In this document: in pieces, positions 13,952 through 62,900 of the stretch
How positions within the stretch are numbered: position 1 is the stretch's first letter
Layout of the letters: every line of letters starts with the position of its first letter
Source: Bacteroidota bacterium
GTDB lineage: Bacteria > Bacteroidota > Bacteroidia > UKL13-3
Assembly (NCBI GenBank): GCA_027487835.1
Contig: JAIYCU010000019.1
Span: 1 to 64,000 of the forward strand
DNA: 64,000 nucleotides
Direction: 5' to 3'
Position numbers and translations under genes: made by a program
The notes under the pieces: model-generated
What the model was told of the DNA's origin: nothing
The model's input: the letters and a program-made list of their open reading frames with translations, nothing else
Databases searched by the model: none

Positions 13952-14211
13952 TTTGACCCATTTGGTAGTTTACACTCCTTCAATAATCCATTCGAAAAAT
14001 AATCAAAAATGCGATAATGCACAAGGGTTCCATTAACTTAACTAAACTTAAAGCGTACAATATTCTTTTCCTATTTCTTTAGGCTTCCCGCTTACCTTAG
14101 TCTCTTTTTTTGTATAGTTACATAGGTTTTTCTTCAATTGATACAAATACTTGCGTTTTAAGCCTAATATGCCTTAGCTTTAAACCCTTTATCATCTTTA
14201 TCGCGCTAGCC
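13952..14211. other. intergenic region before the giant PKD gene
   Basis: About 260 AT-rich bases between the rplQ terminator and the start of the giant secreted protein. The giant gene's open frame extends back to a TTG at 14110, but those codons precede the signal peptide and are unlikely to be translated. I see no convincing TAnnTTTG promoter, no RNA gene and no repeat here. Confidence 0.5.
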
Positions 14212-17200
14212 ATGCAGCATTTTCTACGTCTTGTAACTTTTTGTCTTTTTAGCCTATTGCTCCATCGCAATGCATTGGCTCAACCTGCTATTTTTCTTGA
14301 TAGTAATTTGGTAAGAACGCTTGCGGGTGCAGGTACCGTAGGAAATGTTAATGCCATTGGCTCCTTCGCTAGGTTCAATGAGCCAACGGGCGTTTGTGTA
14401 GATACCTTTGGAAATATTTATGTGGCGGATTATGCCAATCATTCTATCCGAAAGGTTAACCCAATTACGGGTGAGGTTACCTTGTTTGCTGGTTCTGGCC
14501 TTGCAGGCTATGCCGATGGAATTGGTGCCGCAGCAAGTTTTAATTCGCCCACCGGTTTAACGTGTGATAAAGCTGGAAATGTTTATGTGGCCGATCAATT
14601 TAATCTGCGCATTCGAAAGATTACCCCGGCTGGCGAGGTTTCTACTTTTGCAGGTACTGGTAATGTAGGTACGCTTAATGGCGCTGCCTCAGCTGCTACT
14701 TTTACTTTCCCCTGCGGCATTGCCCTTGATACCAATGGCAATTTTTATGTAGCGGATCAGTATAGCCATGTGATACGAAAAATTAGTAATACAGGCACTG
14801 TTTCTGTTTTTGCTGGCACGCCCAATGCGGCCGGTTTTGTAAATGGACAAGATGTGCTGGCTAGGTTTAATACCCCAACGGGTGTGGCGGTAGACTTGCA
14901 AGGGAATGTTTATGTGGCCGACAATAAAAATAATTGTGTTCGAAAGATTACCCCAAGTGGACTGGTTTCTACTTTAGCGGGAAATGGCACCAATGGTTAT
15001 GCAGATGGGATAGGCACCAATGCGGTGTTTTTAGCTCCCTCTGGCCTGTATGCAGATGACTTAGGAAATGTATATGTGTCTGATAAAAATAACCAACGCA
15101 TCAGAAAGATTGCTACCAATGGAATGGTATCAACCCTGCTTGGAGATGGCATTTACCAAGGCTTAAATGGAAATGGAATCTTAGGTAGGGTAGGCAACCC
15201 ATATGGTATCGCCTTAGATAAAGCAGGACGTGCCTTAATTGTTGAAACGGGTTTTCACCTGCTTCGCAGAACAGCAGCCACCTTTATTGATACGTTTTAT
15301 ACAAAAATTACCCAAGCTTCTACGGTTAACAGCTTCTCCTTTACGGCGTATCAATTAACCACCAACGCAGACGTAGTAGCAAGCCCGGGTTTTCAGATTT
15401 CTTTGAGTAGGGATTTTGGCTTTACAGATTCTCTTTCTATTTCTCCCCTCAATGGCATCGTAAATCAAACCATTTATGTTCGGTGTTTAAGCAATACCAA
15501 TGGGGGTATTATAACAGGTGTTGCACAAATTAAAAGTCTTGGTGCCAACACGGTTTCGGTGCCACTTGTGGCTTCGGTTTCTTGTGATGGACTCAACATT
15601 CAACCCAATTATGTGCGAGATGCTGTAGCAGGTGTTCCGTATAGTTTTGGCTTTTCAGCCCAACAAGTAGGGCAACTCTCTTGGTCGCTTGCGGCTGGCA
15701 ATTTGCCTAATGGACTTACTTTAAACGCACTTACAGGAGAAATAGCGGGTACTACCAATGCGGTAGGTTCTTATACTTTTACCCTTCAAGGTTTGGCCTC
15801 GGCCACATGCCTTGTGCAACAAAATTATAGCATGCTGGTGGTAAATACTGCCCTGCCAAGGTTTGGATACTTTGTTAATTCTTGTGCCAATAGAACCATT
15901 CAGTTTTATGATTCATCCCTTATTGCCAATACTTATCTATGGGATTTTGGGGATGGCACAAATTCTACGCTTAAGAGTCCTTCTAAAACCTATAGCAAAG
16001 ATTCTATTTACCTCGTTACACTTACCATCAATGGAACTGTTTCTTTCTCTCGAAGCATTGCTGTGTATGCAACGCCAGTTTCGCCTGTCATTAGCACTTC
16101 AAATGATTGTAATTTTCAATATTCTTTTCAAGGAGCACCCCTAGGTGGGCAATATACCTACCAATGGATGTTTGAGGGAGGCAATGGTTCCGACTCACTT
16201 TCGCGCGTTGTTAACAGAAGGTATCTTAGCACAGATACTGCCCAAGTGTATTTACTGCTTACCTCAGGTGGCAGGTGCACTGTGGCTTCAAATGTGCTTC
16301 GGTTCAAACCGACCCTTTATGCCCCCATTGTAAAAGCAGGCATTGGTGTGAGTGCACCCGGAAATAATTTTTGCACCAATAATAGAATTATAAGCAATAC
16401 CAGTAGCAGTGGATTATTGGCTTATACCTTAAGTGTGAATGGTGGACCCTTTTTACCCATTACGGCTTCAGTAAATTTAAATGGTTTAAGCAAAGGTACC
16501 TATCAATTAAAATTGGCAACCCACAATGGAATTTGTTTCGACACGGCCAATGCAAGTTTTGTGATTTCTACCACTACCGCTGCTTTTACAGAACAAGCTA
16601 GTACCTGCAATGCTTCTGTTCAGTTTACCAATACTTCTTTTGCCGAAGAACCACTTGCATTAACTTATTCATGGATTTTTGGTGCGCCTCAAAAGGGAAG
16701 TTCTACCCTTGTTAACCCCTTGTTTAATTTTGGAAGTGGCGGCGTTGATACCGTTTTTTTAACGGTTACAGCTGCTAATGGGTGCTCAAATTCTATCCAA
16801 AAAGCAATTACCATTAGCAATGGTACCACACCAAACCCATCGTTTACTTGGCAAGCCAATCAACCTTGTAACAACCGCATTCAATTTACAAACACCTCTA
16901 ACAATGGGGCCACTTCTTACCTATGGAGTTTTGGCGATAGTACCTCTAGCACCGCTTTGCATCCTAGCAAATCTTATGGAGATACAGGCAATTATACGGT
17001 AATACTTTATGCGTTTAATGGCACTTGTACTACCGCTATCCTGCAAACTGTGCGCATCGTGCCTGGTGCAATAGGGCCCTTTGCACAATTTACTATTAAT
17101 AAAGATAATCAACTTTTCTCTGCGCAATCTTTTGATTTTGCAAATGCAAGCAAACACCTTGGTGCTGGCTTTAATAGCAGTTATCAATGGGAGTTTGGCG

Positions 17201-20200
17201 ATGGTAGATTCTCAACTAATACTTTTGTATTTAATAAAGTATATGCAGATACGGGTAATTTTTGGGTAAGGCTTATTGCTACCAATAATTTAGGTTGCAA
17301 GGATACCATTTATAAAGGGGTTCGGGTTGAACCAATTGAGTGGGTTAGGTTTGGATATCAAACACCAAGTTGCACCACGCGCAGCATTCAGTTTATAGAT
17401 TCATCTTACCTTGCTAGCTCATGGTTTTGGGAGTTTGGGGATGGAGATACTTCTACCCAAAGAAACCCTATGCATACCTATGCAAAGGATTCAAGTTATT
17501 GGGTTAAGTTAACCATAAATGGCATAAGAACTACCCTTAGAAATATTGAAATTATAAATCAAGCACCTATTAGTGCCATTAGTTCTTCAGTGAATTGTGC
17601 CTATGAATTTAGTTTTTTTGGTGCGCCTTTAGGACAGAATTATAGCTATCATTGGCAGTTTTTAGGAGGCACAGGAAGCGATACTACCCTTCGCATTCCC
17701 ACTAGAACCTATACTTCGCCTGGTTTAACTTCTGTAGATTTAACCGTTTATAACCAAGGCAAGTGTCCGGTTTCAGCCCCCCAATTTATATTTACGCCCA
17801 CCATTGTACAAAATGGGTTTACCACTAAAGCAATGGTATATGCGCCTGATAGCAACTTGTGCTCAACCACCCGCATTATTAAAAATGAAGGCCTAGGCGC
17901 TAATTTGTATTTATGGCGCATAGACAAGGGTGCTTTTGATACCCTCTTTACGGCAGATACGCTTACTGGTTTGGCACCAGGGCCGCATATTGTTCAGGTG
18001 GTTGGTAGCAAAGGATTTTGTGTAGATACCTTAAACTTCCCTTTTATCATTAGTGCACCGGTCCCTTCCTTTATTGCCATCCCTAGTGCATGCAACCAAC
18101 AAGTAAATTTTTTAAGTACTTCTACTGTTACAGATAATGGTTCCCTAACCTATCAATGGTTTTTTGGTAAGCCTTTAAAAGGAACTGCAAATACCCAAAA
18201 TGCAAGTTTTAATTTTGGGGTGGCTGGCTTAGACTCGGCTTTCTTAACCTTAACAAGTTCTAGTGGCTGTTCCTTAACCCTTGGTAAAAGTGTATTGGTG
18301 GGCAATGGCACCGGACCAAATGCTAGTTTTGTATCAACTTTAGCAAATACCACCTGCCGTAATTTAATTCAATTTACCAATACCACCGGGGCAGGATTTT
18401 CATATTACTGGGATTTTGGAGATAGTAGTTTTAGCACCCTTGCCAATCCTTTGCATGGCTTTGCCAAATTAGGAAGCTATACAGTTACGCTAACCGTAAG
18501 TAATGGCAGTTGCAGCTCGGTGGCTACCAAAATAATTCAAATAGATTCTGGTGCATTTGGGCCAGCAGCTAGGTTTAGTTTGAACCAAGTGAGCATGCCA
18601 ATAGATAACCATAGTTTTACCTTTATCAATGCGAGTTCACATTTGGGCAATAATGCTTGGAATACTAAATATACTTGGAATACTGGAGATGGATTTATCG
18701 ATTCAACCACCAATTCAATTTATAATAAAAAATATAGCGCACCAGGCACTTATTTGATTTCATTAAGGGCTACCAATTCTTTGGGATGTGCTGATGTGTA
18801 CACAGCCCCCGTAACGGTATACCCTGTGGTGCAGGCAAAGTTTGGTTTTGTGCAAAATGCATGTAGCAATCGTTTGGTTCAATTTAGAGATTCATCCAGT
18901 TTGGCCACTAGCTATAAATGGTATTTTGGGGATGGAGATTCATCTAGCTTGGCAAATCCATCGCATCTTTATTTAAAAGATAGCATGTATACAGTTAGGT
19001 TATTCATTAATGGAACGCATAGCATAGACCAAGCAGTTACGGTGGCAACTACACCTGTAATTGGCAGTTTAAGTGCGCTTGCCGCTTGCGATAATATGTA
19101 TGGTTTTTATGGCGCACCTATTGGCAATCAGTATAATTATTATTGGGGTTTTTCAGCGGGTAGTTTTGGAAGCGATACCTTCTTGCGCGTTCCTTTTAGA
19201 GGGTATTCAGTAGCAGGTATTAAAACGGTTACCTTACAAGTGCGTTCCTATGGCAGGTGTGCAGCAAATGCAACACCACTTAGCTTTAATGCAGCGGTAT
19301 TTGTTCCAAGTGCCAAAGCTGCATTTGAAGTAGTACCGCCTGTTGGGCAAAATTATTGTTCTAATAATCGTGTAATTAATAATTTAAGTAATCCTGGTTT
19401 ATTGTCTTATACCTATAGCTTAAACGGTGGACCTTTTATTCCCTTAGGGATTTCTGCGGCCATTAATAATTTATCACCTGGCTACCACTTAATAAGAATG
19501 GCTGTTTATAACGGCAATTGTGCCGATACGGTGGCAGATGTAATTAATATTTCTACCCCTGTCCCTAATTTTGAATCGGTAGCGAGTAATTGCAATCAAT
19601 TGGTGAGTTTCAAGAATCTATCCACTACCAATGACTTGGCCGGCATGAGCTATGCTTGGCAGTTTGGCTCGCCCGTAAAAGGAGGCTCAAATGCAAGCAA
19701 TCCAGTATTTAATTTTGTTGTACCAGGCATAGATACGGTTACCTTAACAGCCACTTCACAAAGTGGTTGTGCAGTGAGTATAAAGAAGGCAATCACAGCC
19801 GGATTAGGGTCAACCCAACTGCCTTTAGATTTTAGTTATTCTGTGGCGCCAAATTCTTGCAGCAACCGCATCCAATTTAACAACCTTAGTCCGGCAGATA
19901 CCGCCTTGCGATTTACATGGAATTTTCCGGATGGTACTTCTGATATCAGGTTGAGTCCGGTAAAAACCTTTTCAGACACTGGCAATTTAGAGGTGATATT
20001 AATTGGTAATAAAAATGGTTGCTTTAGTACGCTTGCTAAAACGGTCAATCTGCCTTTTGGAAGCTTTGGTCCAATTGCTGCCTTTATCCCTAATAATCCT
20101 GCGCAAGATTTTGTTGGCCATTCCTTTAATTTCTTAAACAATAGTTCCTCTTTGGGATTGGGTTGGGTTGTAGCGCACCGCTGGAGTTTTGGAGATGGCA

Positions 20201-22125
20201 AGCAAGATTCTGTTAATACTTTTATCTTTAATAAGAAGTTTGCTAGTCCAGGAAAATACCAAATAATGTTAAGCGTACTTGGCTCTACCGGATGCAGAGA
20301 TACGGCCTATGCGCAAGTAGAGGTATTGCCCATTCCTGTTGCCAAGTTTGGCCTGAGTGGATTAAGTTGCAATAACAGAAGCGTGCAATTTTTAGATTCT
20401 TCCATTTTGGCCACCTCTTATAAATGGAGATTTGGCGATGGCGATTCTTCTACTTTGGCCAATCCAACACATACCTATGCAGCAGATGGAAACTATTTAG
20501 TGAGTTTAACCATCAATAACATATCCATATTTTCTAGAACCATAGAAATCGTAAACTCACCCAATGCATCCTTTTTGGTTCAAGCCAATAATTGCCAAAA
20601 TGTATTTAGTTTAACACCTGTAAGTAATGGAACAGAATATACTTATTTATGGTTAGGCGATAGAAAATATTGGTCAGATTCTAGCGAGCGTTTGCAACGT
20701 ATTTCATTTACCAAAACAGATACAGGCTATATTCAATTGCTTGTTACAAAAAAAGGATTGTGTTCTTCTTTGTCATCGCTAGACACTTTGTATGGATTTA
20801 ACGGACCCAAAGCAGATTTTTCAATTGCCATTTCAGATTCCTGCGGCAATGGACGCTTATTGGTAAACAATAGCACAGGGATGACACAAACTTTATATAT
20901 TTTAGATAATGATGCACCCAAAAGTGTAGGGGCTATGATAGCCTTAAATAGTTTGAGTGAAGGCATCCATAAACTGAGCGTAATTGCGGTGGAGAATTTA
21001 TGCTCGGATACCTTAAGTACTACTTTTACCATTTCTGATATTACAGGTGATTTTGAGGCTACTCAATTAGCCTGTGTTAAAACCATTCAGTTTGAACCTA
21101 AACTTAGTTTTGAACCAACACTTTCTGCCAATTATTTGTGGAATTTTGGGGATGGAAATTTTGCTGATACCGCCATGATTAATCATACGTATTTAAATGG
21201 CGGACTCATACCTGTTAGTTTAGAAGTGACCTTAAGCAATGGTTGCAGAAAGATATTGAGCAAAGACATCACAGTGGTGGATCAATCTGGCCCAGGCGCA
21301 GTAATTACTCAAACTCTACAAACAGGTACACCTTGTAATACTGGCTATAGATTTAATGCTTTAAGCAGCAATGCGGTTCAATATTTATGGGATTTTGGAG
21401 ATGGATTTAAAACGCCATTATTGCCAAGTAATTCAGTGTTTCATGCCTATGCATTTACGGGTAATTACCCTGTGGTATTGGCCGCAATAGATGCAAAAGG
21501 TTGCAGTAGTATTTCTGATACCTTGTTTCTTCAAGTTAATAATACGGGCAAGGCTAGGCCCGTTTCTAGGTTTGTTACCTTGGATACTACCATGTGTTAT
21601 TTAACCCAAAATTATAATTTAGTAAATGCGTCCTACATGAGTGGGATAGGCTTTATTAATGGCACACAATGGAACTTTGGGGATGGGAATATAGATGTGC
21701 TAAATACTTCAATATTTGGGAAGAAATTTAGTCAAGTAGGTAATTATAAAGTAACGCTTACCAGCACCTCAGATGCGGGCTGTATTGATTCGTTTAGTAT
21801 TGTATTAAAGGTAGTAGATGATTCCATTTGTAATCCAAATCCAGTGGGTTTAACCCAAGCAAAGGCTGCAAAAGGTGTGATATTATATCCTAATCCAAAT
21901 GAGGGTAATTTCTATTTGCAATCTCGCAAAGATATTGGGGCGAGTAAAGTTAGCGTATATGACATAGCTGGTAGATTGGTATGGGAGCAATCGGTTTATT
22001 TCGGGTTGAACCAAAGTCAGTGGCTCGAGCTAGGCTTTTTGAAAGCAGGGAACTATCTGTTAACACTCACCACAAAGAATTCCGAGCAAGAGCGCATTAA
22101 GTTTGTAGTGTATGAGGTTAAATAG
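14212..22125 (+). CDS. giant secreted NHL/PKD-repeat protein with T9SS sorting domain
   Basis: This 2,637-aa protein is probably exported and anchored or released at the cell surface by the type IX secretion system. A signal peptide (MQHFLRLVTFCLFSLLL...ALAQ) supports ATG 14212. Residues ~30-400 contain about six NHL repeats (pattern GNVYVADQ-N-RIRKI), giving a beta-propeller. A putative Ig-like domain follows (~500-545). From residue ~550 to ~2555 come PKD-like domains with the WDFGDG motif, arranged as four super-repeats starting at residues 550, 1046, 1543 and 2045. The last ~80 residues (ILYPNPNEGNF, then VYDIAGRLVW) form a T9SS type A sorting domain. It stands alone. The function is likely adhesion or gliding-related, but this is inference. 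Confidence 0.9.
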   Translation: MQHFLRLVTFCLFSLLLHRNALAQPAIFLDSNLVRTLAGAGTVGNVNAIGSFARFNEPTGVCVDTFGNIYVADYANHSIRKVNPITGEVTLFAGSGLAGYADGIGAAASFNSPTGLTCDKAGNVYVADQFNLRIRKITPAGEVSTFAGTGNVGTLNGAASAATFTFPCGIALDTNGNFYVADQYSHVIRKISNTGTVSVFAGTPNAAGFVNGQDVLARFNTPTGVAVDLQGNVYVADNKNNCVRKITPSGLVSTLAGNGTNGYADGIGTNAVFLAPSGLYADDLGNVYVSDKNNQRIRKIATNGMVSTLLGDGIYQGLNGNGILGRVGNPYGIALDKAGRALIVETGFHLLRRTAATFIDTFYTKITQASTVNSFSFTAYQLTTNADVVASPGFQISLSRDFGFTDSLSISPLNGIVNQTIYVRCLSNTNGGIITGVAQIKSLGANTVSVPLVASVSCDGLNIQPNYVRDAVAGVPYSFGFSAQQVGQLSWSLAAGNLPNGLTLNALTGEIAGTTNAVGSYTFTLQGLASATCLVQQNYSMLVVNTALPRFGYFVNSCANRTIQFYDSSLIANTYLWDFGDGTNSTLKSPSKTYSKDSIYLVTLTINGTVSFSRSIAVYATPVSPVISTSNDCNFQYSFQGAPLGGQYTYQWMFEGGNGSDSLSRVVNRRYLSTDTAQVYLLLTSGGRCTVASNVLRFKPTLYAPIVKAGIGVSAPGNNFCTNNRIISNTSSSGLLAYTLSVNGGPFLPITASVNLNGLSKGTYQLKLATHNGICFDTANASFVISTTTAAFTEQASTCNASVQFTNTSFAEEPLALTYSWIFGAPQKGSSTLVNPLFNFGSGGVDTVFLTVTAANGCSNSIQKAITISNGTTPNPSFTWQANQPCNNRIQFTNTSNNGATSYLWSFGDSTSSTALHPSKSYGDTGNYTVILYAFNGTCTTAILQTVRIVPGAIGPFAQFTINKDNQLFSAQSFDFANASKHLGAGFNSSYQWEFGDGRFSTNTFVFNKVYADTGNFWVRLIATNNLGCKDTIYKGVRVEPIEWVRFGYQTPSCTTRSIQFIDSSYLASSWFWEFGDGDTSTQRNPMHTYAKDSSYWVKLTINGIRTTLRNIEIINQAPISAISSSVNCAYEFSFFGAPLGQNYSYHWQFLGGTGSDTTLRIPTRTYTSPGLTSVDLTVYNQGKCPVSAPQFIFTPTIVQNGFTTKAMVYAPDSNLCSTTRIIKNEGLGANLYLWRIDKGAFDTLFTADTLTGLAPGPHIVQVVGSKGFCVDTLNFPFIISAPVPSFIAIPSACNQQVNFLSTSTVTDNGSLTYQWFFGKPLKGTANTQNASFNFGVAGLDSAFLTLTSSSGCSLTLGKSVLVGNGTGPNASFVSTLANTTCRNLIQFTNTTGAGFSYYWDFGDSSFSTLANPLHGFAKLGSYTVTLTVSNGSCSSVATKIIQIDSGAFGPAARFSLNQVSMPIDNHSFTFINASSHLGNNAWNTKYTWNTGDGFIDSTTNSIYNKKYSAPGTYLISLRATNSLGCADVYTAPVTVYPVVQAKFGFVQNACSNRLVQFRDSSSLATSYKWYFGDGDSSSLANPSHLYLKDSMYTVRLFINGTHSIDQAVTVATTPVIGSLSALAACDNMYGFYGAPIGNQYNYYWGFSAGSFGSDTFLRVPFRGYSVAGIKTVTLQVRSYGRCAANATPLSFNAAVFVPSAKAAFEVVPPVGQNYCSNNRVINNLSNPGLLSYTYSLNGGPFIPLGISAAINNLSPGYHLIRMAVYNGNCADTVADVINISTPVPNFESVASNCNQLVSFKNLSTTNDLAGMSYAWQFGSPVKGGSNASNPVFNFVVPGIDTVTLTATSQSGCAVSIKKAITAGLGSTQLPLDFSYSVAPNSCSNRIQFNNLSPADTALRFTWNFPDGTSDIRLSPVKTFSDTGNLEVILIGNKNGCFSTLAKTVNLPFGSFGPIAAFIPNNPAQDFVGHSFNFLNNSSSLGLGWVVAHRWSFGDGKQDSVNTFIFNKKFASPGKYQIMLSVLGSTGCRDTAYAQVEVLPIPVAKFGLSGLSCNNRSVQFLDSSILATSYKWRFGDGDSSTLANPTHTYAADGNYLVSLTINNISIFSRTIEIVNSPNASFLVQANNCQNVFSLTPVSNGTEYTYLWLGDRKYWSDSSERLQRISFTKTDTGYIQLLVTKKGLCSSLSSLDTLYGFNGPKADFSIAISDSCGNGRLLVNNSTGMTQTLYILDNDAPKSVGAMIALNSLSEGIHKLSVIAVENLCSDTLSTTFTISDITGDFEATQLACVKTIQFEPKLSFEPTLSANYLWNFGDGNFADTAMINHTYLNGGLIPVSLEVTLSNGCRKILSKDITVVDQSGPGAVITQTLQTGTPCNTGYRFNALSSNAVQYLWDFGDGFKTPLLPSNSVFHAYAFTGNYPVVLAAIDAKGCSSISDTLFLQVNNTGKARPVSRFVTLDTTMCYLTQNYNLVNASYMSGIGFINGTQWNFGDGNIDVLNTSIFGKKFSQVGNYKVTLTSTSDAGCIDSFSIVLKVVDDSICNPNPVGLTQAKAAKGVILYPNPNEGNFYLQSRKDIGASKVSVYDIAGRLVWEQSVYFGLNQSQWLELGFLKAGNYLLTLTTKNSEQERIKFVVYEVK
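15859..21840 (+). repeat. four-copy ~1.5-kb super-repeat inside the giant PKD gene
   Basis: The coding sequence holds four tandem copies starting at 15859, 17347, 18838 and 20344, with spacings of 1488, 1491 and 1506 bases. Each begins with (R/K)FG, a cysteine-containing segment, QF-DSS and a W-FGDG module. It then goes through the same order of modules: a GAP-G segment, an IxN segment, a C-Q-V/I-F segment, a second FGD module and an SSxLG segment. Copies are similar at protein level but clearly diverged in DNA, so the duplications are old. The fourth copy is the most altered. Confidence 0.85.
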
Positions 22126-22135
22126 TTTAGGACGG

Positions 22136-22490
22136 GGTAGAACTAGTTTAGGTAGAAATACAACTGGGTATGGATTAAGGTAGAACTAGGTTTAGGTAGA
22201 AACATAAATGGGTATAGGTTTGGGGTACAACTAGGTTTAGGTAGAAACATAGCTGGGTATGAGTTAGGGTATAACTAGTTTAGGTAGAAACATAACTGGG
22301 CACAAATTAGGGTATAACTAGTTTAGCTAGAAACATAAATGGGTATAGGTTAGCGGTACAACTAGGTTTAAGTAGAAACATAACTGGGCATGTGTGGAGG
22401 GTTAGCTAGGTATAGCTTAGGGTATAACTAGGTTTAGTTAGAAACATAACTGGGTATGTTTGAAGGTACAATTGGCTTAGGTTTTTACAT
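22136..22490 (+). repeat. 44-bp tandem repeat array
   Basis: Starting 10 bases after the giant gene's stop, a unit of 43-45 bases repeats head to tail: units begin at 22136, 22179, 22224, 22268, 22311, 22355, then a half unit at 22399 (22 bases), a full unit at 22421 and a decaying unit at 22465. Core blocks are GGTANAACTAG, TTTAGGTAGAAACATA and ACTGGGTAT. All units have the same orientation and are imperfect. There are no spacers, so it is not a CRISPR array. It has strong G-over-C strand bias and no obvious hairpin. Confidence 0.9.
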
Positions 22491-22922
22491 AGCACGCTAT
22501 CATTTATACAACCATATAAATTGGTTGTTTGGGCATAAATTCTTAAGTTTTTTGCCGTTAAGAACTTCTTCCACATTTAATTTTTCAGTGCTTATTATGC
22601 AGTCAATTCTAGTTGTATCTTGGTATATGGAATTTGAAGGATTCTTTATTTTTAAGTGAATAGGATATCTCACTTCGCTAAAATTTTTATAGAAAAAAGG
22701 ATATTCCCAACTGTCTCCAGTTAGGTTCAAACCAATCTTAGAAAATTATTTAAGGCTCGACAACTTACCTTCGTAAACTAAAATAAATATTAAAACAAAA
22801 GTGATGGGTATGAGAATGGTTGCCATGCTATAATCAAAATGTGAATATAGATTTATTTTAAAAATATTGTAACAAAATAGAAAGTGAGCGCGTCACATGC
22901 ACAAACCCCTTAAAACTAAAAC
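22491..22922. other. AT-rich intergenic region before the sigma factor gene
   Basis: This stretch of about 430 bases lies between the tandem array and the ECF sigma gene. A minus-strand frame of 76 codons (22500-22730) reads as plausible protein but has only a TTG start and a stop just upstream; it could be a gene remnant. One copy of the dispersed motif GGTTCAAACC lies at 22724-22733. I see no clear promoter or RNA gene. Confidence 0.4.
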
Positions 22923-23408
22923 ATGACAGTTGCCGAATACAATAGTTGTGTGGATCAATACGCTGATGCCCTGTTTCGCTTTGTGGTGAAGAACCTCAAG
23001 GATAGCGATGCAGCTAGAGATGTGGTGCAAGACACGTTTGAAAAATTATGGTTAAAGGCCGAGCAAGTAGATTTTCAGAAGTCGAAAAGCTATTTGTTTA
23101 CCGCAGGTTACCATACCATGATTGATAAAATACGCAAAGAGAAATATTCGGCAGTGATGGAAGAGCATCATGAGGAGTTTGTTCAAACCGATAACAAATA
23201 CAGTGATTTGAAAAAGATATTGAATAAAGCTTTAGAAACTTTAAGTGAAATACAAAGACATGTGGTATTGCTTAGAGATTATGAAGGGTATAGCTATGAG
23301 GAGATAGGCGAAATTACTGGGTTGAATGAAAGTCAGGTTAAGGTTTATATCTACCGGGCTAGGTTGGCAATGAAAAATTATTTAGGCAGTTTAGAAAACG
23401 TTATATGA
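22923..23408 (+). CDS. ECF-type RNA polymerase sigma factor
   Basis: This 161-aa protein has the ECF (sigma-70 group 4) architecture. Region 2 (about residues 8-75) includes DAARDVVQDTFEKLW and the DKIRKEK end. Region 4 (about 105-155) has LSEIQRHVVLLRDYEGYSYEEIGEITG and a DNA-binding helix ESQVKVYIYRAR. It directs RNA polymerase to a small set of promoters, usually under an anti-sigma factor. Its stop overlaps the start of the next gene (ATGA), so the two are translationally coupled. The signal it answers to cannot be told from the sequence. Confidence 0.93.
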   Translation: MTVAEYNSCVDQYADALFRFVVKNLKDSDAARDVVQDTFEKLWLKAEQVDFQKSKSYLFTAGYHTMIDKIRKEKYSAVMEEHHEEFVQTDNKYSDLKKILNKALETLSEIQRHVVLLRDYEGYSYEEIGEITGLNESQVKVYIYRARLAMKNYLGSLENVI

Positions 23409-24475
23409 GCAATTTACCTAATTTATCGAACTACGAAGAATGGTTGATTAACCATTTGGAAGGCTTGTTGGATGCTGAGGAAACAGCTGTTTTATTAGCG
23501 TTTTTAGACCAGCACCCAAACATAAAGGCAGAATTTGATTTGTTAACTAGTCAGGATTTAGCCATAGAACCACTTGCCATTACCCAAGATTTCTCTTATT
23601 TGAAAAAGCCTGAAATTGGCACCTTAAGCACTGCAAATGAGAATGACTTAATAGCATTATTGGAAGGTGATTTGGCGCCTTTTGAAGCTGCCCAGCTTAC
23701 GCAACAAATTGCACTACAACCTGCCTTGAAAAATGCCTACGACTTATTTAAGAAAACTAAAATGAGTCCGAGTGCCCAGGTGTTTGAAAACAAAGAAAAA
23801 TTAAAGCGCAAAAAGGCTATACTTCTTTCGATGTTGCCCTTAAGGATAACTGCAATTGCCGCTGCATTGCTGTTATTAAGTTATGGTTCTTGGCTTTTTT
23901 TGAACCAAACGCATGAAAGTGAAATAACGGGGCAAATGATGGTAAACAAGGAATTGCCTGCCATTAGTAATGAAGAGGTAAGTACAGGGCCTGAGACGGT
24001 AAGGAGCAAGAGCAAGAGCAAGAGCAAGAGCAAGAGCATGAGCAAGGGCAAGAGGGTGGAATTAGCCACCGAAGGCTTTTTTGCTGCTGCAAAAATGGAT
24101 GCCCAGCGTATTGCATTGCACGGATTACCAGTATTTGAAACCGTGGAAATGCAGCGTCCAATGCTTAAGCCTATTGAAAGAATGCCTATGCTTAAGTATA
24201 ATAACCCTAGCCTAATGGCTTTGAACGAACCTAAATTTTTAAAGCCAAGTGAGTGGATACTTCAAAAAATTAAAAGAAATATACCAGCACAAGCTTTAGT
24301 GACAGCCGATACCATTAGTAGGGGAGGCGCAGGCTATTTAGCCATGGATTTATTAACTAAGACTACGGGCATTAGCATGGAAACCTATGCTAATGAAAAT
24401 GACCCTAGGAGAAGAGTTGCTTTAGTTTCTAAGTACTTTTCTTATGAAAGAGTTAGCTATCAAAAAAATAATTAA
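23405..24475 (+). CDS. putative membrane anti-sigma-like protein
   Basis: I do not recognise a named family across this 356-aa protein. The N-terminal ~140 residues are hydrophilic and contain two EGxLxxxE-like helices (NHLEGLLDAEETA and ALLEGDLAPFEAAQ). One transmembrane segment follows (about residues 143-168), then a low-complexity Ser-Lys stretch (SKSKSKSKS) and a C-terminal outer part. The single membrane span and the 4-base overlap with the ECF sigma gene suggest an anti-sigma or co-regulator role; this is inference. A ZAS-type zinc motif (HxxxCxxC) is not visible. Confidence 0.75.
   Translation: MSNLPNLSNYEEWLINHLEGLLDAEETAVLLAFLDQHPNIKAEFDLLTSQDLAIEPLAITQDFSYLKKPEIGTLSTANENDLIALLEGDLAPFEAAQLTQQIALQPALKNAYDLFKKTKMSPSAQVFENKEKLKRKKAILLSMLPLRITAIAAALLLLSYGSWLFLNQTHESEITGQMMVNKELPAISNEEVSTGPETVRSKSKSKSKSKSMSKGKRVELATEGFFAAAKMDAQRIALHGLPVFETVEMQRPMLKPIERMPMLKYNNPSLMALNEPKFLKPSEWILQKIKRNIPAQALVTADTISRGGAGYLAMDLLTKTTGISMETYANENDPRRRVALVSKYFSYERVSYQKNN
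24005..24052 (+). repeat. AGCAAG hexanucleotide microsatellite in the anti-sigma-like gene
   Basis: AGCAAG is repeated five times perfectly (24005-24034) and then three more times with single-base changes (to 24052). It encodes the Ser-Lys run just outside the predicted membrane span. Copy-number changes would add or remove two codons without shifting the frame. Confidence 0.9.
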
Positions 24476-50978: not shown

Positions 50979-53900
50979 ATGATTCAATTTCGATTTCAAT
51001 TTCGATTAAGCTTTTTACTTTGCTTAATTCTTTTAGGTTCTGTGTTTACTGCCCAATCACAGGTGAGTACATACACATTTTCTAGTACCTCAGCTACATT
51101 TGTACCTATAACGGGTGCTACCTTATTGTCTGGGGTTGGTACGGTAAACGACGACAACCAATTTTCTAATGTCCCAATTGGATTTTCATTTTTGTACAAT
51201 GGTGTTTCCTATACCACTGTGGGTGTTAACTCAAATGGATACATTACTATGGGGGGAACTGCTGGTGCAAGTTGGTATGATGGAACTTCCATGCCTAATC
51301 TTGCAAACACCATTCATGGTTTAAGCGAGGATTTACATGGTACAAATAGTACTTGTCAATTAGGATATGTTACAACTGGAACAGCTGGCTCAAGGGTATT
51401 TACGTTAGAGTGGAGAAATTGGGGGTTTTATAATAATTCATCGACTTTATATAATGAATTGAGTTTTCAAATAAGGCTTAATGAAGCAACGGGTTCAATA
51501 GAGTTTAATTATTCTAATGGGACACCAATAACTACGCAAACACCTCAAGTTGGTTTAACGGGTGCCCTTACCTCCGATTTTATTGGTAGAACTTCTGCAA
51601 GTAGTTGGTCATCTACTTCCGCAATGACAACTAATGCGCAACAAATGGGATGGTCGAGTACGAATAATGTTGGTACCGGACTGCGCTATACCTATACACC
51701 TCCGCCAATGGTTTATGTTAGTTCAACCACTACACATCCAAGCACCGCGGCGGCAACGCCAGGCGCAAGTAATGTTCAAATGTTGGCGGTACAAATTGTT
51801 ACCACAGGTGCAGGCGCTCCATTGGTGGTAAATCAATTGGATTTTTCAACAGCAGGAACTACAAACTTGGCAGATATTAGTAATGCGAAAGTTTTTTATA
51901 CAGGCACAAATAGTAATTTCTCATCCGCTGTGCAATTTGGTTCGAGCCAAACCTCACCAGGTGCTACCTTTAATGTAACAGGTTCACAAGCTTTAGCAAC
52001 AGGTACTAATTATTTTTGGTTGGTTTATGATGTAAATGGAAGCGCAGCTTCTAATAATGTATTGGATGCCGCATGCAGTCAGATTACTTATAATACTTCA
52101 ACTACAGCGGTGCCAACTATTCAGGCACCAATAGGAAGCAGAACAATTCGCCCATCTATGAATGGAGCGTATGCCATTGGAACGGGTGGAGATTTTACAA
52201 CTTTAACTTCGGCAGTGAATGAGTTGGTTGCAGTTGGTGCAACGGGTCCGGTAACTTTTAATCTTACCAATGCTTATTATGGTGTTTCTACTGGCGAAGT
52301 TTTTCCTATTGCTATTTCTAGGATTCCAAATTTATGTGGGTCATGTAATTCCTTATTACCTATTTTAACTATACAACCAGCGTCAAGTACTTCTGGTGTT
52401 TTAATTGAAAATTTGGCTGCAAATGCACAAAATCTATTTAATGTTTCTGGCGCCCAGTTTGTTACCATTGATGGTAGATTGGGTGGATCAGGCACCTCTA
52501 AAAGTTTGGTATTGAGTAATGGATCAACAACAGGAATTACTGTAAATTTTCTAAATGATGCTAGGCAGGTGCTTTTGAGAGATTGTATGATAAAAAGTGC
52601 TAATACTAGCGCAATCTCTGGTGCAATTGTAATTGGCGGTTCAAATGGAACTTTAGGAAATGATAGTATCTTAATTACCAATTGTAATATTACAAATTAT
52701 GCAGTTGCTGCTGCAACCTTGGCAAACGGTATTTATTCGGCAGGGCAATCTTCAATCATCCAAAATGATTATATCACCCTAGTAAACAATAATATTTATA
52801 ATTTCACTACAAATGGAATTTCTGTTTTATCTACAGGCTCTGGTATTGGTGCATTTTGGACCATTACAGGAAATAGTATATATGATACAATTGCCAGTGC
52901 GGGAACCACAACGCGAATTGGTATAAACTTTCTCCCTGCCACTGGTGCAACTAATTCTTTTGGGCATATCATCAGTGGAAACTTTATTGGTGGTACTTCT
53001 CCATTTTGTTTAGGTTCACCTTTAACATTTACAGGTGCTTTTGGCAGTTTTACGGCACTTGCGATTAGCAATTCTGCAAGTGCAAGTGCAACTCAAATTC
53101 ATAATAATACCATTACCAATATCGTACTTTCTGGTGCTGGTACCAGGGCGTTAACTGGGATAACCTTAAGTGGTCCAGGGTTTTATTCTGTGAACGGAAA
53201 TGTTATGGGTCATAGAAGTACTCCTAATACTATAACAAGTGCCAATAACGGTACAGTGCAGTTTCTATCTAATACAGGTTCAGGAACAATTTCAATTGTA
53301 AATAATGTTGCTGCTAACATTGGTTTAACAAATATTGGTACTTCTACTGCATTCAGAGGGATTGTTTCTACAGGTGGTTCAGGTACACAAACCATTACAG
53401 GAGATAGTATTTATAATATATCACTTACTGGAACAGCCACTGGTTCTTTAACAACAGCCGCCTTTGCAGGTATTGCAGTCGCCGCAAGTCCAACTACTTT
53501 GCTAATTAACAATAACCTGATAACAGGAATTAGTAACTTGCAAATAGGTTCACATGTAATGGTGGGTATTTCATCCACTGGGTTTCCAACTAATTTAAGC
53601 ATTCAAAATAATCAGGTTGTAAATCTGAGATCTCAATCTACTGCGATTGGCTCAACAACTGCGGCTGCATTAAATGGAGTAATTGTAGGAGGTGGAACAA
53701 CGGTAAGTGTTACCGGAAATACCATCAATCAATTAAGAGTGGGTGGTTCTGCAGGTACACAATTAAATGGTATGTGTTTTACTTCAGGCACAAATACAGT
53801 TACAGGTAATACCATTTCAAACCTATCTACTGTAACCACCTCAATTGGATCTACTACATTGTCTGGTTTAAATGGAATTTTGTCAACTTCTACAGCAGTT

Positions 53901-56900
53901 CAAACCATTACTGGAAATACAATAGATTCATTATCTTATTCACCAGTTACAGCTGCTGCAGTTAATATTAATGGTATTTATTCTGCTGGAGGAACTAATT
54001 CTTCAATAAGTAATAATACGATTACAAGGATTTTATCAAGGAGTTCAGCTACCGGCACTACAAATTCATCTTCAATTGTTGGTGTTAATATTTCGAGTTC
54101 TGGTTTGAGCCTAACTGTCAATGGTAATACGATTCATAGTTTGGTTAATTTAAATCCAACTGCCGCAGTTAATATTTCAGGGATAGCGCATAATAGCAGT
54201 AATACCTTTTTAAATAACAACACAATTATTGCTAGAAATAATATTCATAGTTTTGGATTAGTTACTTCTGGCCTTGGAGGTTTTACAGGAATAACCATTA
54301 CAAATTCAGTTGCGATTGTCCAAAACAACATGGTTAGATTGGGATTAGACGCTGCAGGCGTTGACCAAGCTGGACCTTTTATTAGAAGGGGTATTCATTT
54401 TTCTGGTTCTAATGCAGGTGGCGCCTTAGGTTTCAGGGTTTACCACAACTCAATTTATATCGCTGGAACCCACGCTTCGGGCGCGAGCAATACCGCAGCG
54501 ATAGAATTTACAAGTGCAATTGCAACAGGGTCTGTAGACGTTAGGAATAATATTTTTGCAAACGCGTCAAGTGGCGGTACTGGATTTCATTGTGGACTTA
54601 AAGTATTTAGTACGGCTAATTTTAACAGTAATAACAATTTGTATTTTTCCCCAGGAACTGGTGGTAGAATTGCGATGAATAACTTAACAGCCTATACTGC
54701 AATTTCTGGTACAGGTGGATGGTCAGAGGCAAGTGCTTTAGACGGGAATAGTGGTATTGGTAATCCAAATTTTATTAATGCCACTGGTACTTCAGCAACC
54801 CTTAACTTAAGATTAGCTAGTCCAACACCTGCGGAAGGACATGGAAATGCTTTATTTACAGTTTCCGATAATTTTGATGGATTGGGTAGAGGAACTAGAA
54901 CCCCTGTTGATATAGGTGCAGATGCAGGCAACTTTACTTCAAGTGCAGATGTGTTTGCCCCAATTATAAGCTATACGGCATTAACAAATTCCTTTACTTC
55001 TGCCAATAGAGCATTGTCAGTTTCTATTATAGATGCAGGTGGTATCCCAACAACTGGTTTAAATGTGCCACGTGTTTATTACAAGAAAATGGCAACAGGT
55101 ACTTATGTTAGTTCACCTGGTACTTTAAATGTGGGAACAGGAAATTCAAGTGTTTGGGATTTTACATTGGATCATTCATTGCTTGGAGGAGTTAATCCTG
55201 GAGATTCGGTTTACTATTATGTAATTGCGCAAGATTTAGCAGGGAATATTGTATCTCAATCACCTTATGCGGTTGCAACAGATGTAAATACCGTGGTGAA
55301 TCATCCATCAAATATTTTGGTGAATGCTTATAGAAGAACGCCAACCTTAGGAAGTCCAATTTTGGTTGGAACAGGTAATGCAATTACCTCACTTACCGCA
55401 GCAAATAATACTGGCTTATTTTTCATGTTGAACAATGGTGCCATAGATGGAAATGTTGAGGTGTTAATCACAAGTGATATTACAGAAACTGGTGCTTTGG
55501 CATTAAATGAGGTCATTCAATTAAGTGCAGGTGTTCAAGGGCAATATGGTTATAAAATTAGAATTAGGCCTAGTGATAATACTAAGCGCACTATCACAGG
55601 CGCGTATGGTACTCCCCTCATAAGTTTAAATGGTGCGGATAATATTGTATTTACAGGTGTTTCGCCAATTGGTACGCCAGCTGACACTAACTTAACTTTT
55701 GCAAGTACAAGTACATTTGCACCTGTATTTCAGTTTGGTAATGATGCCATAAACGATTCTTTGCATAACCTAAATATCATTGGAAGAAATACTTCTACTT
55801 TATCTGGATTAATAAATATTTCAACAGCAGGTTCAGTTTCAGGAAATGATAATATTAGTATTGTTGGATGTAATATTTATACCGGATTATTAACAGCACC
55901 GCATGCAAATGGTGTTTACAGCGTAGGTACTACGGGTAGGGAGAATGATAATTTATTGGTGTTAAATAATAACATATTCAACTTCACCAATATTGGCGTA
56001 AATATTGGTACTGGGAATGGTAATAATTTAAAAGTTTCTAGCAACCATTTTTATAATAATAACACTACCCTGCCAAGCACTGCTTTAACTGGAATTAGTT
56101 TAACGCCTGGCGCCTTAAGTAATAATGACACGATAGACGGAAATTACATTGGAGGTAGGCAAAGATTTTGCAGTGGACCAGCCCTTACAAATTCTGGAGC
56201 AACCACCTTTACAGGAATAAATGTAAGTGTGGGAACTGCCACAGGAGTTAGCATTACAAATAATTTTATTCAAAACATTAATTATACAAATGTTACTACC
56301 TCAACTATAACAGGTATCAATGCCATAGGCGGCAGGGTATTAATTGCTAATGACACAATTGGGCACAGAATTTTGAGTAACAATATTAGTTTGGATGGAA
56401 ACTCTGGTTTTATTGGAATTAACTCTACTACAAGTTCTACTATTAGCATTATCAATAGTTTTGTAGGTAATATAAATGCAACAAGCACAGGTGTAAGTTC
56501 ATTTATAAGAGGTATTAATGTTTCATCTTCTACTTCTCCCGTAATAATTAGTGGAAATACGCTTGTCAACTTTAATACGCTTTCAACAAATGCTGGAACA
56601 ACTACAGCACCCGCATTATCTGGTATAATTGTTTCAAGTAGTTCTACCTCACAAATAATTTCAAATAACATTATTGCTGGATTGTTTGCTAATACAACAG
56701 CCACTGCGGCTGTAAAAGTATTTGGTATATATGTTTCATCAGGTACCAATACTATTATAAATAACTCAGTAAGTAATCTAAATAATAGTGCCATTAGCAC
56801 AGGTACAGCAACTGCTGCTGCTATTATTGGGATAGCTTTACCTAGTACAAATTTGGGTCAAACCTTTTCAAATAATTTGATTGAGAATTTAAACCAAAAT

Positions 56901-59900
56901 GGGATTGGAGCCACCCAAGTTATTGGTGCTTATTCCATTTCGCAAGCTTTAACCTTTGTAGGAAATACCATCAGAAATTTAAATAGTTACTCAACTAGTA
57001 CTAGCACAATTGGTGGTTCAGCTATAGTAGGATTTTCTTATCCTACAGGCTTTACAAATAACACCTTTACAGATAATCAAGTTCATTCATTACAGCATAT
57101 AAATAATTTGGCCACTGCGGGTGTGAATTTAATAGGTATGTACTTTGTGAATGGAACAACAGGAAGTAATTTATTTGCAAGGAATAAAATTCACTCAATT
57201 GGATCAATTTCTGCAAATCCTGTAACAATCCATGGCGTTAACTGTGGTGGAGGTACCACCACCTTTGCCAATAACATGATTAGGTTAGGTTATGACAAGG
57301 ATGGTAATATTCTTGCCTCTGGGATGTATAATATTTTTGGTTTTACATTAGGAACAGGTTCTTTAAATAATGTTTATCATAATTCAATTTATGTAACTCA
57401 AGGATTTCAACAATCAACACCACCTTATTTAAATACACAATTCACTTATGCGTTTAATTGCACTTCTGTTCCTAATTTAAATATTCTTAATAATATTTTT
57501 GTTAATGATGCTACAAACCTAGGAACTGGTACTTATGCTGTAAGCGGTACGCATGGTGTAATGAGGTTTGGTTCAATGGCTGCTACTTTAAATAGTAATT
57601 ATAATATTTATAATTATGGAGATACATCTGATGGTGCTGTATTAGTTACTATTGGAAATAATGGAGTTGGCGCATTTAATCAAAATTATACAGTGTTTAA
57701 TAAAGCGGTTAGTTCTGGCTCACTGTTAAGTTGGCAAGCCTCTTCTGCACCATATAAAGATTTGAATAGTGCGGTGGTTAATCCTAATTTCATTAATCCT
57801 GTTGGAACGGCTGCAACGGGCAGTTTGTATTTATCTGCTAGCAATCCTGCAGAAGGTACTGGTGACAATTCATTGGCAGCTCTTGTGTTAACAGACGTGG
57901 ATGGTGCTTCTAGAGGTGATTCTACACCAGTAGACATTGGCGCTGATGGAGGTAATTTTACAAGAACACCAGATGCATTTGCCCCAATCATTACTTATAC
58001 AGCTTTAACAAATACTCCATCACTTGCTAATAGAACTTTATCTGCGAGTATCACTGATTTAGTAGGTATTCAGACGACAGCGGGTAGTAGACCAAAAATT
58101 TATTTTAAGAAAAATTCTTCAACCACTTTTGTTGCATCAGAAGGTTCACTTGCATCTGGAAATGCGCTAAATGGAACTTGGGATTTTACCATTAATCATA
58201 GTTTACTTTCAGTTGGTTTAGGTGATACGCTTTCATATTTTGTGGTAGCACAAGATATTGCTGGGAATATTGCAGTTTCGCCATTCCCTGGATTTGCTAC
58301 AAGTGTTAATAATATTACTGACACACCTGATGTGTTAAGTTCTTACTTAATTAGTTCTCCATTACCAACCGTTTTAAATGTAGGTCCGGCCGAAACTTAT
58401 AAGTGTTTAACCTGTGCAGGAGATACAGGTCTCTTCAATGCGATTAATAATGGATTTTTGGCTGGAAATACTATTGTTAATATAGTAGGTGATACCTTAT
58501 TTGAATCTGGCGCTGTAGCTTTAAACAGGTGGTTAGAAACCTCTAGTGGCGTTATTGGAAATTATGGGTACAGTTTAACAATTAGACCTTCAAATAATAA
58601 TAGAAAGCTTCTTTATGGAGATATTGCAAATAATCAGTTATTACGTTTTAATGGGGCCTCAAACATTAACATTACAGGTGTTGCATCTGCTGGTTCAGCG
58701 GCCGATACTAACTTGGTTATTCAGAATAGAAATACAATCGGTATAGGTTGTATTCAATTGGTAAATGATGCCTCAAATGTTTCTATTTCTAATATGATTT
58801 TTACCGGACGTGCAGGTACCTTAATTGTAATTGGTGGAACTACGCGTACAACTGGTAATGATAATATCGCAATTAGAAATAGTTATTTTAGAGCAGATAC
58901 AATTAATACCTTGTATACAAATGGTTTATTGGCCACAGGAACTGCAGGTAAAGAAAATGATAATATTACCATTGAAGGTTGTTATGCCGACAATTTTTCG
59001 CAATTGGGTTTTGGTTTTAATGCTGGAAATGGAAATAACCTAATCATAAAGAACAATCATTTGTATAATTCGTCCAACACTTTTTCTGGTGTAGCAACCT
59101 GCTATGGATTGTTTGTATCTGCTGGCATCAATTCAAATGGAGATTCAATAACTGGTAACTACATTGGTGGTTCAGCTCCATTTGCACAAGGAAGTGCATT
59201 AGTTATCTCAAGCGCTTCTTCATTTGTGGGGATGTTAATTAATGTAGGTGCTACAACTGGTGCTTATGTCAATAATAATTTCATTCAAAATATTACCAAT
59301 TTAAGTGGTGGTTTTAATGGGATTTCACTTCAAGGTTCTGGTACTTGTAATATTATACAAAATACAATTGGTTCAACCCAAACTGGAAGTATTACCACCT
59401 TAGGTAATTCTGCCAATGTGGGGGTATTATCTACAATGACTGGTAATATTAACCTTGAAAACAATACGGTAAGAAACCTTTACAGTAATAATGCTGGCGC
59501 TAGCGCCGCATCAAGAGGTATTATGGTTTCTTCTGGAAGTACCAATACTTTAACTATTAGAAATAATTCATTAAGTAATTTAATTACAAAATCTACCTCT
59601 GGCTCCTCTACTACCTTATCAGGTTTAGTGGGTATTGGTGTAAGTTCATCTTCAACTGCACAATTGATTACAGGAAATAGCATTTCAAATTTAATAGATA
59701 GTATCCTTACCGTTTATAGTGGGGTTGCTCATGGTATTTTTGCAAGCGCTGGTTTAAACACCATTACCAATAATACAATTAATGGTTTAAGGACATTTTC
59801 AAGTAATGCGAGCACCACCACCTTTGCGGCTATTCAAGGTATTGTGGTATCTTCATTCGTTGCAGGTCAAGTTGTTTCAAATAATACTATTAATGATTTA

Positions 59901-62900
59901 CGTTTACTGCCAGTTACTCCTAACTCAACCCAAGTTCTAGGTATCTTGGTTTCTTCTGCAAATGGAGTAACTATTAACGGAAATAGAATTGCAAACTTGG
60001 TTTCAAATAGTACTTCTACCGGAACTTTAACTTCTGCTGCCATCTCTGGTATTATGTATTCAACAACTTTAGCAGGGAATACAATTTCTGGTAATGAAAT
60101 TAAAGGTTTGTTAATTACCAATACTGGATTTTCTAATAGCCATGTATATGGAATTTATTATGGTGGTACCACAACAGGTTCACACACTTTAAGTGCAAAT
60201 AGAATTAGTAATTTAGATAACCTTACCAATGGAAATGGTTTGGTTTCAGGTATATGGAACAACTCTGCAGTTGCAACTGTTTCCAATAATATGATTCAGT
60301 TGGGAATCGATTCATTAGGTGCACTTCAGAATGCTCAATTAGATTTAAGAGGTATAGTGCATAATCATACAAATGCATCAAATTACTATCATAACTCAAT
60401 ATATATTGGCGGTACCCAAACTTTTGGTGCTTCCAATACAACTTGTTTAAACTTAACCAACACAATTTCTGTAGGTCAGTCGGTTAATGTAACTAACAAT
60501 ATTTTATATAACGCTGCCGCTAATAGCGGGTCAGCATCAGGTGTTCATTCATCTATTAGGTTAAATGGAGCCGTATCTCGCTTTAATAGTGATGGAAACT
60601 TATTGGCTGCAACGGGTGCTGGTGCCCAATTAACAAATGCCAATGGGGTAAATTATCCAAATTTACGAGGCATAGGTGGTTGGAATGTATCAACTGGCTT
60701 AGATATAAATTCGGGTCAATTAAGCACTTCTCCATTTGTGAATGCAACCGGAACCTCATCTACCGTAGATTTACATTTATTGGCGTCCAATGCGGCTGAG
60801 GCAAGTGGATTAAATACCCTAAGTTCTGTTATCACTAGTGATTTTGACGGTGAGCTCAGAGCAAGCAATACGCCAACTGATATTGGTGCTGATGCAGGTG
60901 TTTATGTACGTTCATTAGATGTATTTAATCCTTCAATCACCTATGCATTGTTAGGAAATACAGGTGATAATATTGGACCACGTGTTTTATCAAACGTTAC
61001 CATTACAGATAGCGTGGGTGTGCCACTTACAGGCTCATTCACTCCACGTTTATATTATAGAAAGGGCGTCAATGGTGCTTATAGTTCTGTTGTAGCCACA
61101 TCAACAACTGGTGCTGCTACCAATGCTAGTTTCTCATTTACCATGGATTATGCAAGTCTTGGTGGCGTAACAGTAAATGATTCTATTTTCTATTATGTGC
61201 TAGCCCAAGACTTAGCAGGAAATATTATTTCAAATCCTGCATTTGCAGTGGCCACAGATGTAAACACAGTTTTGGCACATCCAGTTAATCCTAATTTCTT
61301 TGTGATTTATCCAACCATACCTGCTAATAGTATTTTTAAAGTAGGTATTGGACAATCATTTGTTTCTTTAACTGGATCAGGTGGATTATTTGAGTTTTTA
61401 AATAATAGAAGTATTGCTGGCAATATTGAAGCCAGAATTACTAGTAATTTAAGTGAGCCAGGTTTATTCGGTTTGAACCAAATTGGTGAAAATGGAGTAG
61501 GAGGATATGAGTTTAGAATTTTACCAGATTCAGGTGTAGTTTCAGAACTTACCTTATCTGGAACTAGCTTATTAGGATTAATAAGATTAGAAGGGGCAGA
61601 TAGGGTTAAGTTTTCTGGTGTTCCTGCAGTAACAGGCAGTGTTGCAGATAGGTTATTACGCATCAGAAATTCATCTACAAACGGTGCTGCATTTTTATTC
61701 TTAAATGATGCACAAGGAGCCAAATTATCCAATTTAATAGTAGAGTCAGCCACCAGTACTGCAGGTACTGGAGTTGTACAGTTTGGTTTCTCAACAGCTA
61801 GCACTGGTAATGATTTTGATACCATTACAAATTGCTTAATTAGAAATGATGTTTCACAATCAGGTGGCTTAGGATTTCCAATCAATGGTATCTACTCAAA
61901 TAGCACGGTTACTGCTTTAAATTCTAATATCGTAATTGATGGAAATCAAATTTTCAATATTCAAGGAACCGGTGTATTGATTGATGCAGCAAATGGAGGA
62001 AATTGGAAGGTAATTAATAATAGCTTCTATTGGAATTCTGCCGTCTCATTAAATCAGTATACAGGTATTAATTTAAATGCCTTTAATTTAAGTAATAACA
62101 ATGAGGTTTCTGGTAATTATATTGGTGGTCAAGCCGCTTCAGCTTCAGGCGCACCAATGGTATTTAATGGGTTTAACTTCATTGGTATTAATATTAATGC
62201 AGGCCTTGGAAATACTATTTCAAATAATACCCTTCAAAATTTACAACAAGTAGCTTCTTCTTTCTCAATTTTCAACCTAATTCAGGTTTCTAATGGAGAT
62301 GCTTCTATAGCTGGAAATATCTTAGGTTCAAACCTTTCTCTTGCTAACATTAGAATGGATGGAACAGGAACTTTTAATGGCATTTCCTCAAGTTCAAATG
62401 GAATTGTCAATATTAGTAATAATCTTCTTTCAGGCCTTACGGTAGCCTCAAATGGCAGTACCTCTATCAATGGAATTGCGGTAAGCGATGGAAGAAATAC
62501 AATTACAGGAAACATTATTGGAAGCATCCTTAATAATGCATTTGACTTTAATTCTTCTGGAACTTTCCGAGGTATAAGCGTTAATACTGTATCTACTGCC
62601 TTAGCACCTACAACGGAAGTTAGTGCCAACTTGATAGGTGGGGTGACAGGTACAAGCACATTGTCTTCTATAATCATAGGAATTCAATATGCCGCACCAA
62701 GCAGAGGTTTAATTTTCGATAATATTATTTCTAATATTTCAATTCCAACTACCAATACAAATGGAGTAGGTGTTTCAAATGCCATTACAGGTATTCAATA
62801 TTCAGGTAGTTCTCCTTTGGGTGCAATCATTAGAGGTAACCAGATTTATAACTTGAGTTCAACTGCTACAAGTGCGGTAAATACATCTGTTTTTGGTGTT

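Follow-up and report, generated by a model that had tools for sequence, protein, structure and literature searches.

A dispersed 22-bp satellite family with a conserved core in a genus of uncultured Bacteroidota

A tandem array between a giant gene and a sigma factor gene

The window, i.e., the whole stretch of 64,000 nucleotides analysed here, belongs to a 3.38-Mb genome of 46 contigs (G000) from a genus of uncultured Bacteroidota represented by metagenomes, the MAG B1(2017) among them. Within the window, a tandem array occupies the space between two protein-coding genes:

14110..22125, + strand: upstream neighbour, a secreted protein of 2671 aa that carries NHL and PKD repeats and ends in a C-terminal domain for type IX secretion
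about 22136..22492, - strand: satellite array of ~16 head-to-tail 22-bp units (TRF, profile R1 matches, and profile parse)
22393..22492, - strand: end at which the array is most degenerate and the two variants no longer alternate cleanly (unit listing; TRF 22-bp row at 22398-22441)
22923..23408, + strand: downstream neighbour, an RNA polymerase sigma factor of the ECF type (161 aa)

A preliminary description of this locus, made from the sequence alone, had reported a regular array starting right behind the giant gene. The array is real: its TRF score reaches up to 404, compared with 62 for the best of 30 dinucleotide shuffles of the whole window, and its autocorrelation at lags 22, 43, and 44 (0.43-0.46) lies above that of all 1000 array shuffles (maximum 0.385). 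Also confirmed is its start, ~10 bp past the stop codon that ends the reading frame at 14110-22125. The unit of 43-45 bp given in that description is correct for a dimer of two variants but not for the fundamental unit, which is 22 bp long: on the minus strand, TAAACCTAGTTATACCCTAAYY-like units alternate with CATACCCAGTTATGTTTCTACC-like ones to form a 44-bp dimer. The ~16 units span 22139-22491, and the profile parse places successive units 21-23 bp apart. Likewise, the strong G-over-C bias exists at this locus (skew about +0.53), but is no trait of the related arrays described below (-0.25 to +0.10). The absence of dyad symmetry was nearly right, as we found a short, imperfect AACYnAGTT element as the only symmetry and no RNA-structure signal in the array against shuffles (folding z 0.9 and 0.05).

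Several identities were rejected. The array is not a coding sequence or a part of the giant gene, since each of the six frames through it carries 6-16 stops and none is open. A structured RNA or riboswitch is ruled out by the absence of excess folding stability and of any Rfam family match up to E=1. No phage record was matched by the array, which removes a phage element from consideration; the one viral contig hit by a pattern of two core units was a coincidental match, with no array there. Elsewhere in the window, another giant open frame, of 4340 aa or more (50979-64000), runs off the right end, and TRF detected a (GAGCAA) x 8.5 hexamer tract (24004-24054) inside a 356-aa ORF after the sigma factor gene.

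Dispersal, gene context, and turnover of family A

A BLAST search of G000 returned weak matches on other contigs, and at three such places there were 22-bp arrays with the same core. A sequence-only profile (R1) then located strong arrays, namely the window array on C3 and those at C4:4.7 kb, C4:64 kb, and C27:116 kb; the ones that it located on C20, C40, C25, and C46 were weaker or more degenerate. The sister species G007 (with a median protein identity of 87% over the part sampled) has strong arrays on C33 and C25 and a third split across the contig ends C37 and C5. In total, there are at least seven strong intergenic arrays (at least four in G000 and three in G007), plus several degenerate ones. 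Related non-coding arrays at several places in one genome are what defines a dispersed bacterial satellite family, and the window array is almost certainly one copy of such a non-coding 22-bp family, hereafter family A. The preliminary description had named a minisatellite among its possibilities, which is supported, and had noted that the array would have an ordinary explanation if its units turned up within an annotated gene family or a transposon; the strong copies are all intergenic, and no transposon was seen there.

The family is narrowly distributed. Among 60 relatives, strong arrays occur in G007 only, and in the 64 genomes searched across the order, no strong arrays appeared beyond those of G000 and G007. 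Weak matches at L360, L079, and L080 have no array. The exception among the weak matches elsewhere is G027 (another genus, same family), in which a 21-bp array of another sequence (L081:7380-7690) lies downstream of a DEAD helicase gene; in the window's genome, a related helicase gene (L066) is followed by an array ~0.7 kb downstream.

Family A arrays sit in every kind of gene context. The flanking genes are in tandem at the window array and at the C33 and C25 arrays of G007, divergent at C4:4.7 kb (upstream of rnhA), and convergent at C27; the C4:64 kb array is near a tRNA-Asn gene, and a 545-aa gene is among the other neighbours. The family adjoins unrelated genes in varied orientations and thus has no fixed link to the giant gene, contrary to the suggested link with an unstable repeat gene. 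Moreover, the giant-gene orthologue in G007 stops at C27:303747 with no family A array behind it; a heptamer array lies ~200 bp past this orthologue. The sigma factor gene of G007 is 16 kb further on and has an upstream array of a different 22-bp sequence (L106), which we dropped as an orthologue of the window array because the unit differs and because of those 16 kb. In G004, the rplQ region immediately precedes the sigma factor gene, and both the giant gene and the array are absent.

At all four G000 sites examined, the genes next to the array are ordered differently in the sister species, compared with 8/120 gene neighbours in sampled regions (112/120 are conserved). Thus, the arrays occupy changeable places, an association in which they may or may not be the cause. 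Some family A loci have a sister-species counterpart without an array. We found no shared insertion ends, no clean empty site, and no flank words common to family A arrays; the left flank of the window array is coding sequence. In both sister species, a 159-aa protein without a Pfam match precedes a family A array (L067:6356-6835 and L075:9485-9964), while the other neighbours found around this gene do not match between the two loci; the gene and the array are possibly a mobile unit. Together with its dispersal, a fast turnover of the satellite is the best-supported statement that can be made about the window array.

A conserved core and a period shared across the genus

We aligned the seven strong arrays to a cyclic 22-position profile. 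The arrays contain 15.7-20.8 units (mean 17.2, sd 1.7, n=7), i.e., about 16-21. At 10 of the 22 positions (T1, A2, A4, C5, A8, G9, T10, T11, T13, and A20) all seven have the same consensus base, which yields the core TAnAC[CT]nAGTTnT......A, read on the minus strand at the window array. The remainder varies freely, and the consensus base differs between loci at most positions outside the core. Within arrays, divergence is 2-17% at core positions and up to 48% elsewhere (chi2 268, 21 df). When the core set was defined from the other six arrays, every array was less divergent in its core (leave-one-out, Fisher p 1.6e-4 to 1.5e-9), p-values that are indicative only and overstate independence, since the units of an array are related by duplication. 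Because four of the arrays went into the profile with which they were found, similarity of the core between loci is favoured, but low variation within arrays is not. Uniform drift would not yield this pattern.

To survey periods, we analysed about 1.3 Mb (1.34 Mb) of G000, 0.47 Mb of G007, and 0.40 Mb of a further genome, G009. Non-coding arrays of unrelated sequence in this genus sample mostly have a period of 21-22 bp, or double or triple that length. In the 1.34 Mb of G000, this applies to about 13 of 19 non-coding arrays, a figure in which the choice of some contigs for their family A arrays inflates the count of family A but not that of the other families. By comparison, 0.43 Mb of other Bacteroidota yielded six non-coding arrays, none with a 21-22 bp period and four being 7- or 14-mers. 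Coding arrays in the survey are mostly multiples of three.

Several of these arrays were recorded individually. Family B is a different, AAGCTACTACCCAAATGGTGGG-like 22-bp array in G007 and G009 (L106:2160-2475, L266:320-510, and L303:11394-11638); its L106 copy has several open frames, since 22 is not divisible by 3. Family C arrays (GTACCCCCTTGGTTTAACATGG) occur in two species (L219:5311-5550 and L290:12235-12490), both with TTTACACA-type ends (TTTACACAATCTAATTTAC and TTTACACACTTAATGAGACGC), which suggests a mobile element. Family E arrays (L225:17700-18060 and L257:2060-2340) have a 42-bp unit with a hairpin, AGAAGCAAAATGCTTCT, and common ends, CAAGTTGTCAGG and TTTTGTCAGG; the L225 array gives a strong folding signal. 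With their repeated ends, families C and E may be BrickBuilt-type elements. A 42/63-bp array at L264:13131-13470, with a folding z of about -8 to -10, contains a long hairpin (GAAAGCATTATGTTTTAAGTAATACTTTC), and heptamer arrays of the CCATGGT / TCGATAG type are found at L222:19232-19477, L221:9157-9244, and L280:3389-3534.

Candidate explanations and known systems

What might protect the core? We suggest that it is the recognition site of a putative sequence-specific DNA-binding protein, a reading that we hold at a probability of about 0.5. The period of family A stays at ~two turns of the DNA helix. Given the protected core, this two-turn spacing, and the indifference to orientation, the constraint is most likely due to a DNA-binding protein. 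Such a protein would recognise the core and sit on successive units along one face of the helix. The same protein might also amplify or move the arrays, in the manner of a replication initiator or a transposase, and slippage and unequal recombination would then maintain copy number and dimer structure. That the binding protein is also the moving agent is speculation; if it were, core constraint, fixed spacing, orientation indifference, and rapid dispersal would be explained together. The preliminary description had listed a protein-binding array as one possible role, and the conserved core, as indirect evidence, makes this reading more likely. A neutral satellite, on the other hand, also disperses and homogenises.

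A neutral or selfish minisatellite is the alternative to be taken most seriously, and we consider it possible. Arrays would be born by slippage and spread occasionally by recombination, no protein would be bound, and the period would reflect the geometry of the copying mechanism. This fits the many unrelated sequence families that have just a period in common, the toleration of every gene context, and the excess of altered gene order at array sites (4/4 versus 8/120). It fits poorly with the protection of the same 10 positions in seven loci of two species and again inside each array, and with the narrow range of copy number.

The array could also be the interior of a BrickBuilt-kind MITE, mobilised by a transposase acting on terminal repeats. 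Such ends do exist in the genus: TTTACACACTTAATGAGACGC-like ends adjoin the family C arrays and one family A array of G007, and the two family E arrays have their ends in common. However, neither type of end is present at the window array, which begins 10 bp past a stop codon, and nothing consistent is common to the family A flanks; we regard this as improbable. Less probable still, and hard to maintain, is the idea that the array is transcribed as part of the giant gene's 3' UTR and influences the fate of the mRNA. The 10-bp distance from the stop codon is in keeping with it, as is the lack of a terminator-like site on the + strand from 21900 to 23000, but the array lacks RNA structure and an Rfam family and is missing behind the sister orthologue, and a general 3'-UTR function is at odds with family A arrays between divergent and between convergent genes. 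Finally, a chromosomal iteron-like decoy that titrates the replication initiator of an incoming plasmid (incompatibility) can be almost dismissed: the C25 array of G007 does match the 22-bp iterons that lie upstream of repM on Acinetobacter plasmids (GGTAAACCTnGTT core) and two position-permuted control arrays matched nothing, but the other four of five real arrays tested do not match, a similarity over 22 bp may arise by chance when many iteron families are compared, and the Rep_3 initiator family (PF01051) is absent from both G000 and G007. A plasmid iteron as such was rejected on the same results, and the replication-origin or Rep-gene location expected of one is not seen at the window array, whose neighbours are the giant gene and the ECF sigma factor gene.

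Extended to the genus, the protein-recognised core would become a wider proposal: unrelated two-turn (21-22 bp) chromosomal arrays, each with its own conserved core, would each be the substrate for binding and amplification by a different DNA-binding protein, as self-spreading satellites that are possibly related to iterons. We consider this unlikely. What the genus offers is several non-coding satellite families side by side with one common period, and array sites that differ between sister species, so that one can follow how arrays are born, spread, and homogenised and how their core is constrained. A biochemical question arises as well, namely which protein, if any, binds TAnAC[CT]nAGTTnT every 22 bp.

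Among known systems, TAACTGA heptamer arrays are intergenic direct repeats in some Bacteroidota (PMC4679880), and heptamer arrays also occur in this genus. They differ from family A in their 7-nt unit and in their placement, which in Orange Guaymas Maribeggiatoa is mostly just upstream of start codons (PMC4679880). The repM plasmid iterons of Acinetobacter are, like family A, 22-bp direct repeats, and have a 13-bp core in common with one G007 array; unlike them, family A is chromosomal, has 16-21 copies, and is accompanied by no Rep_3 gene. By sequence resemblance, the G007 array would provide a lead only.

The closest precedents are BrickBuilt and the dispersed satellites of Leptospira. BrickBuilt, a minisatellite/MITE of Porphyromonas gingivalis, consists of intergenic 23-nt repeats with a conserved and a variable part per unit (PMC4596501). 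Both it and family A are head-to-tail, imperfect repeats of about two turns without spacers, dispersed over a Bacteroidota genome and always placed between genes. However, the BrickBuilt period is 23 nt and that of family A is 22 (21-23), and one period is common to several unrelated sequence families in one genome here, unlike in BrickBuilt. BrickBuilt also has a leader and a tail with IS5-like terminal inverted repeats (PMC4596501). At the window array, no terminal repeat was recognised, and ends of the TTTACACA type were found at some other arrays only; lacking a leader, a tail, and inverted-repeat ends, the window array is therefore not filed as BrickBuilt-type. Leptospira interrogans and Methanocella conradii carry dispersed non-coding satellite families, which a survey of prokaryote satellites terms rare (PMC6749651). 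The parts of that survey drawn on here describe units of 37-46 nt and more, and report neither a common two-turn period nor core conservation (PMC6749651); as in family A, related tandem arrays lie at several intergenic places in one prokaryote genome.
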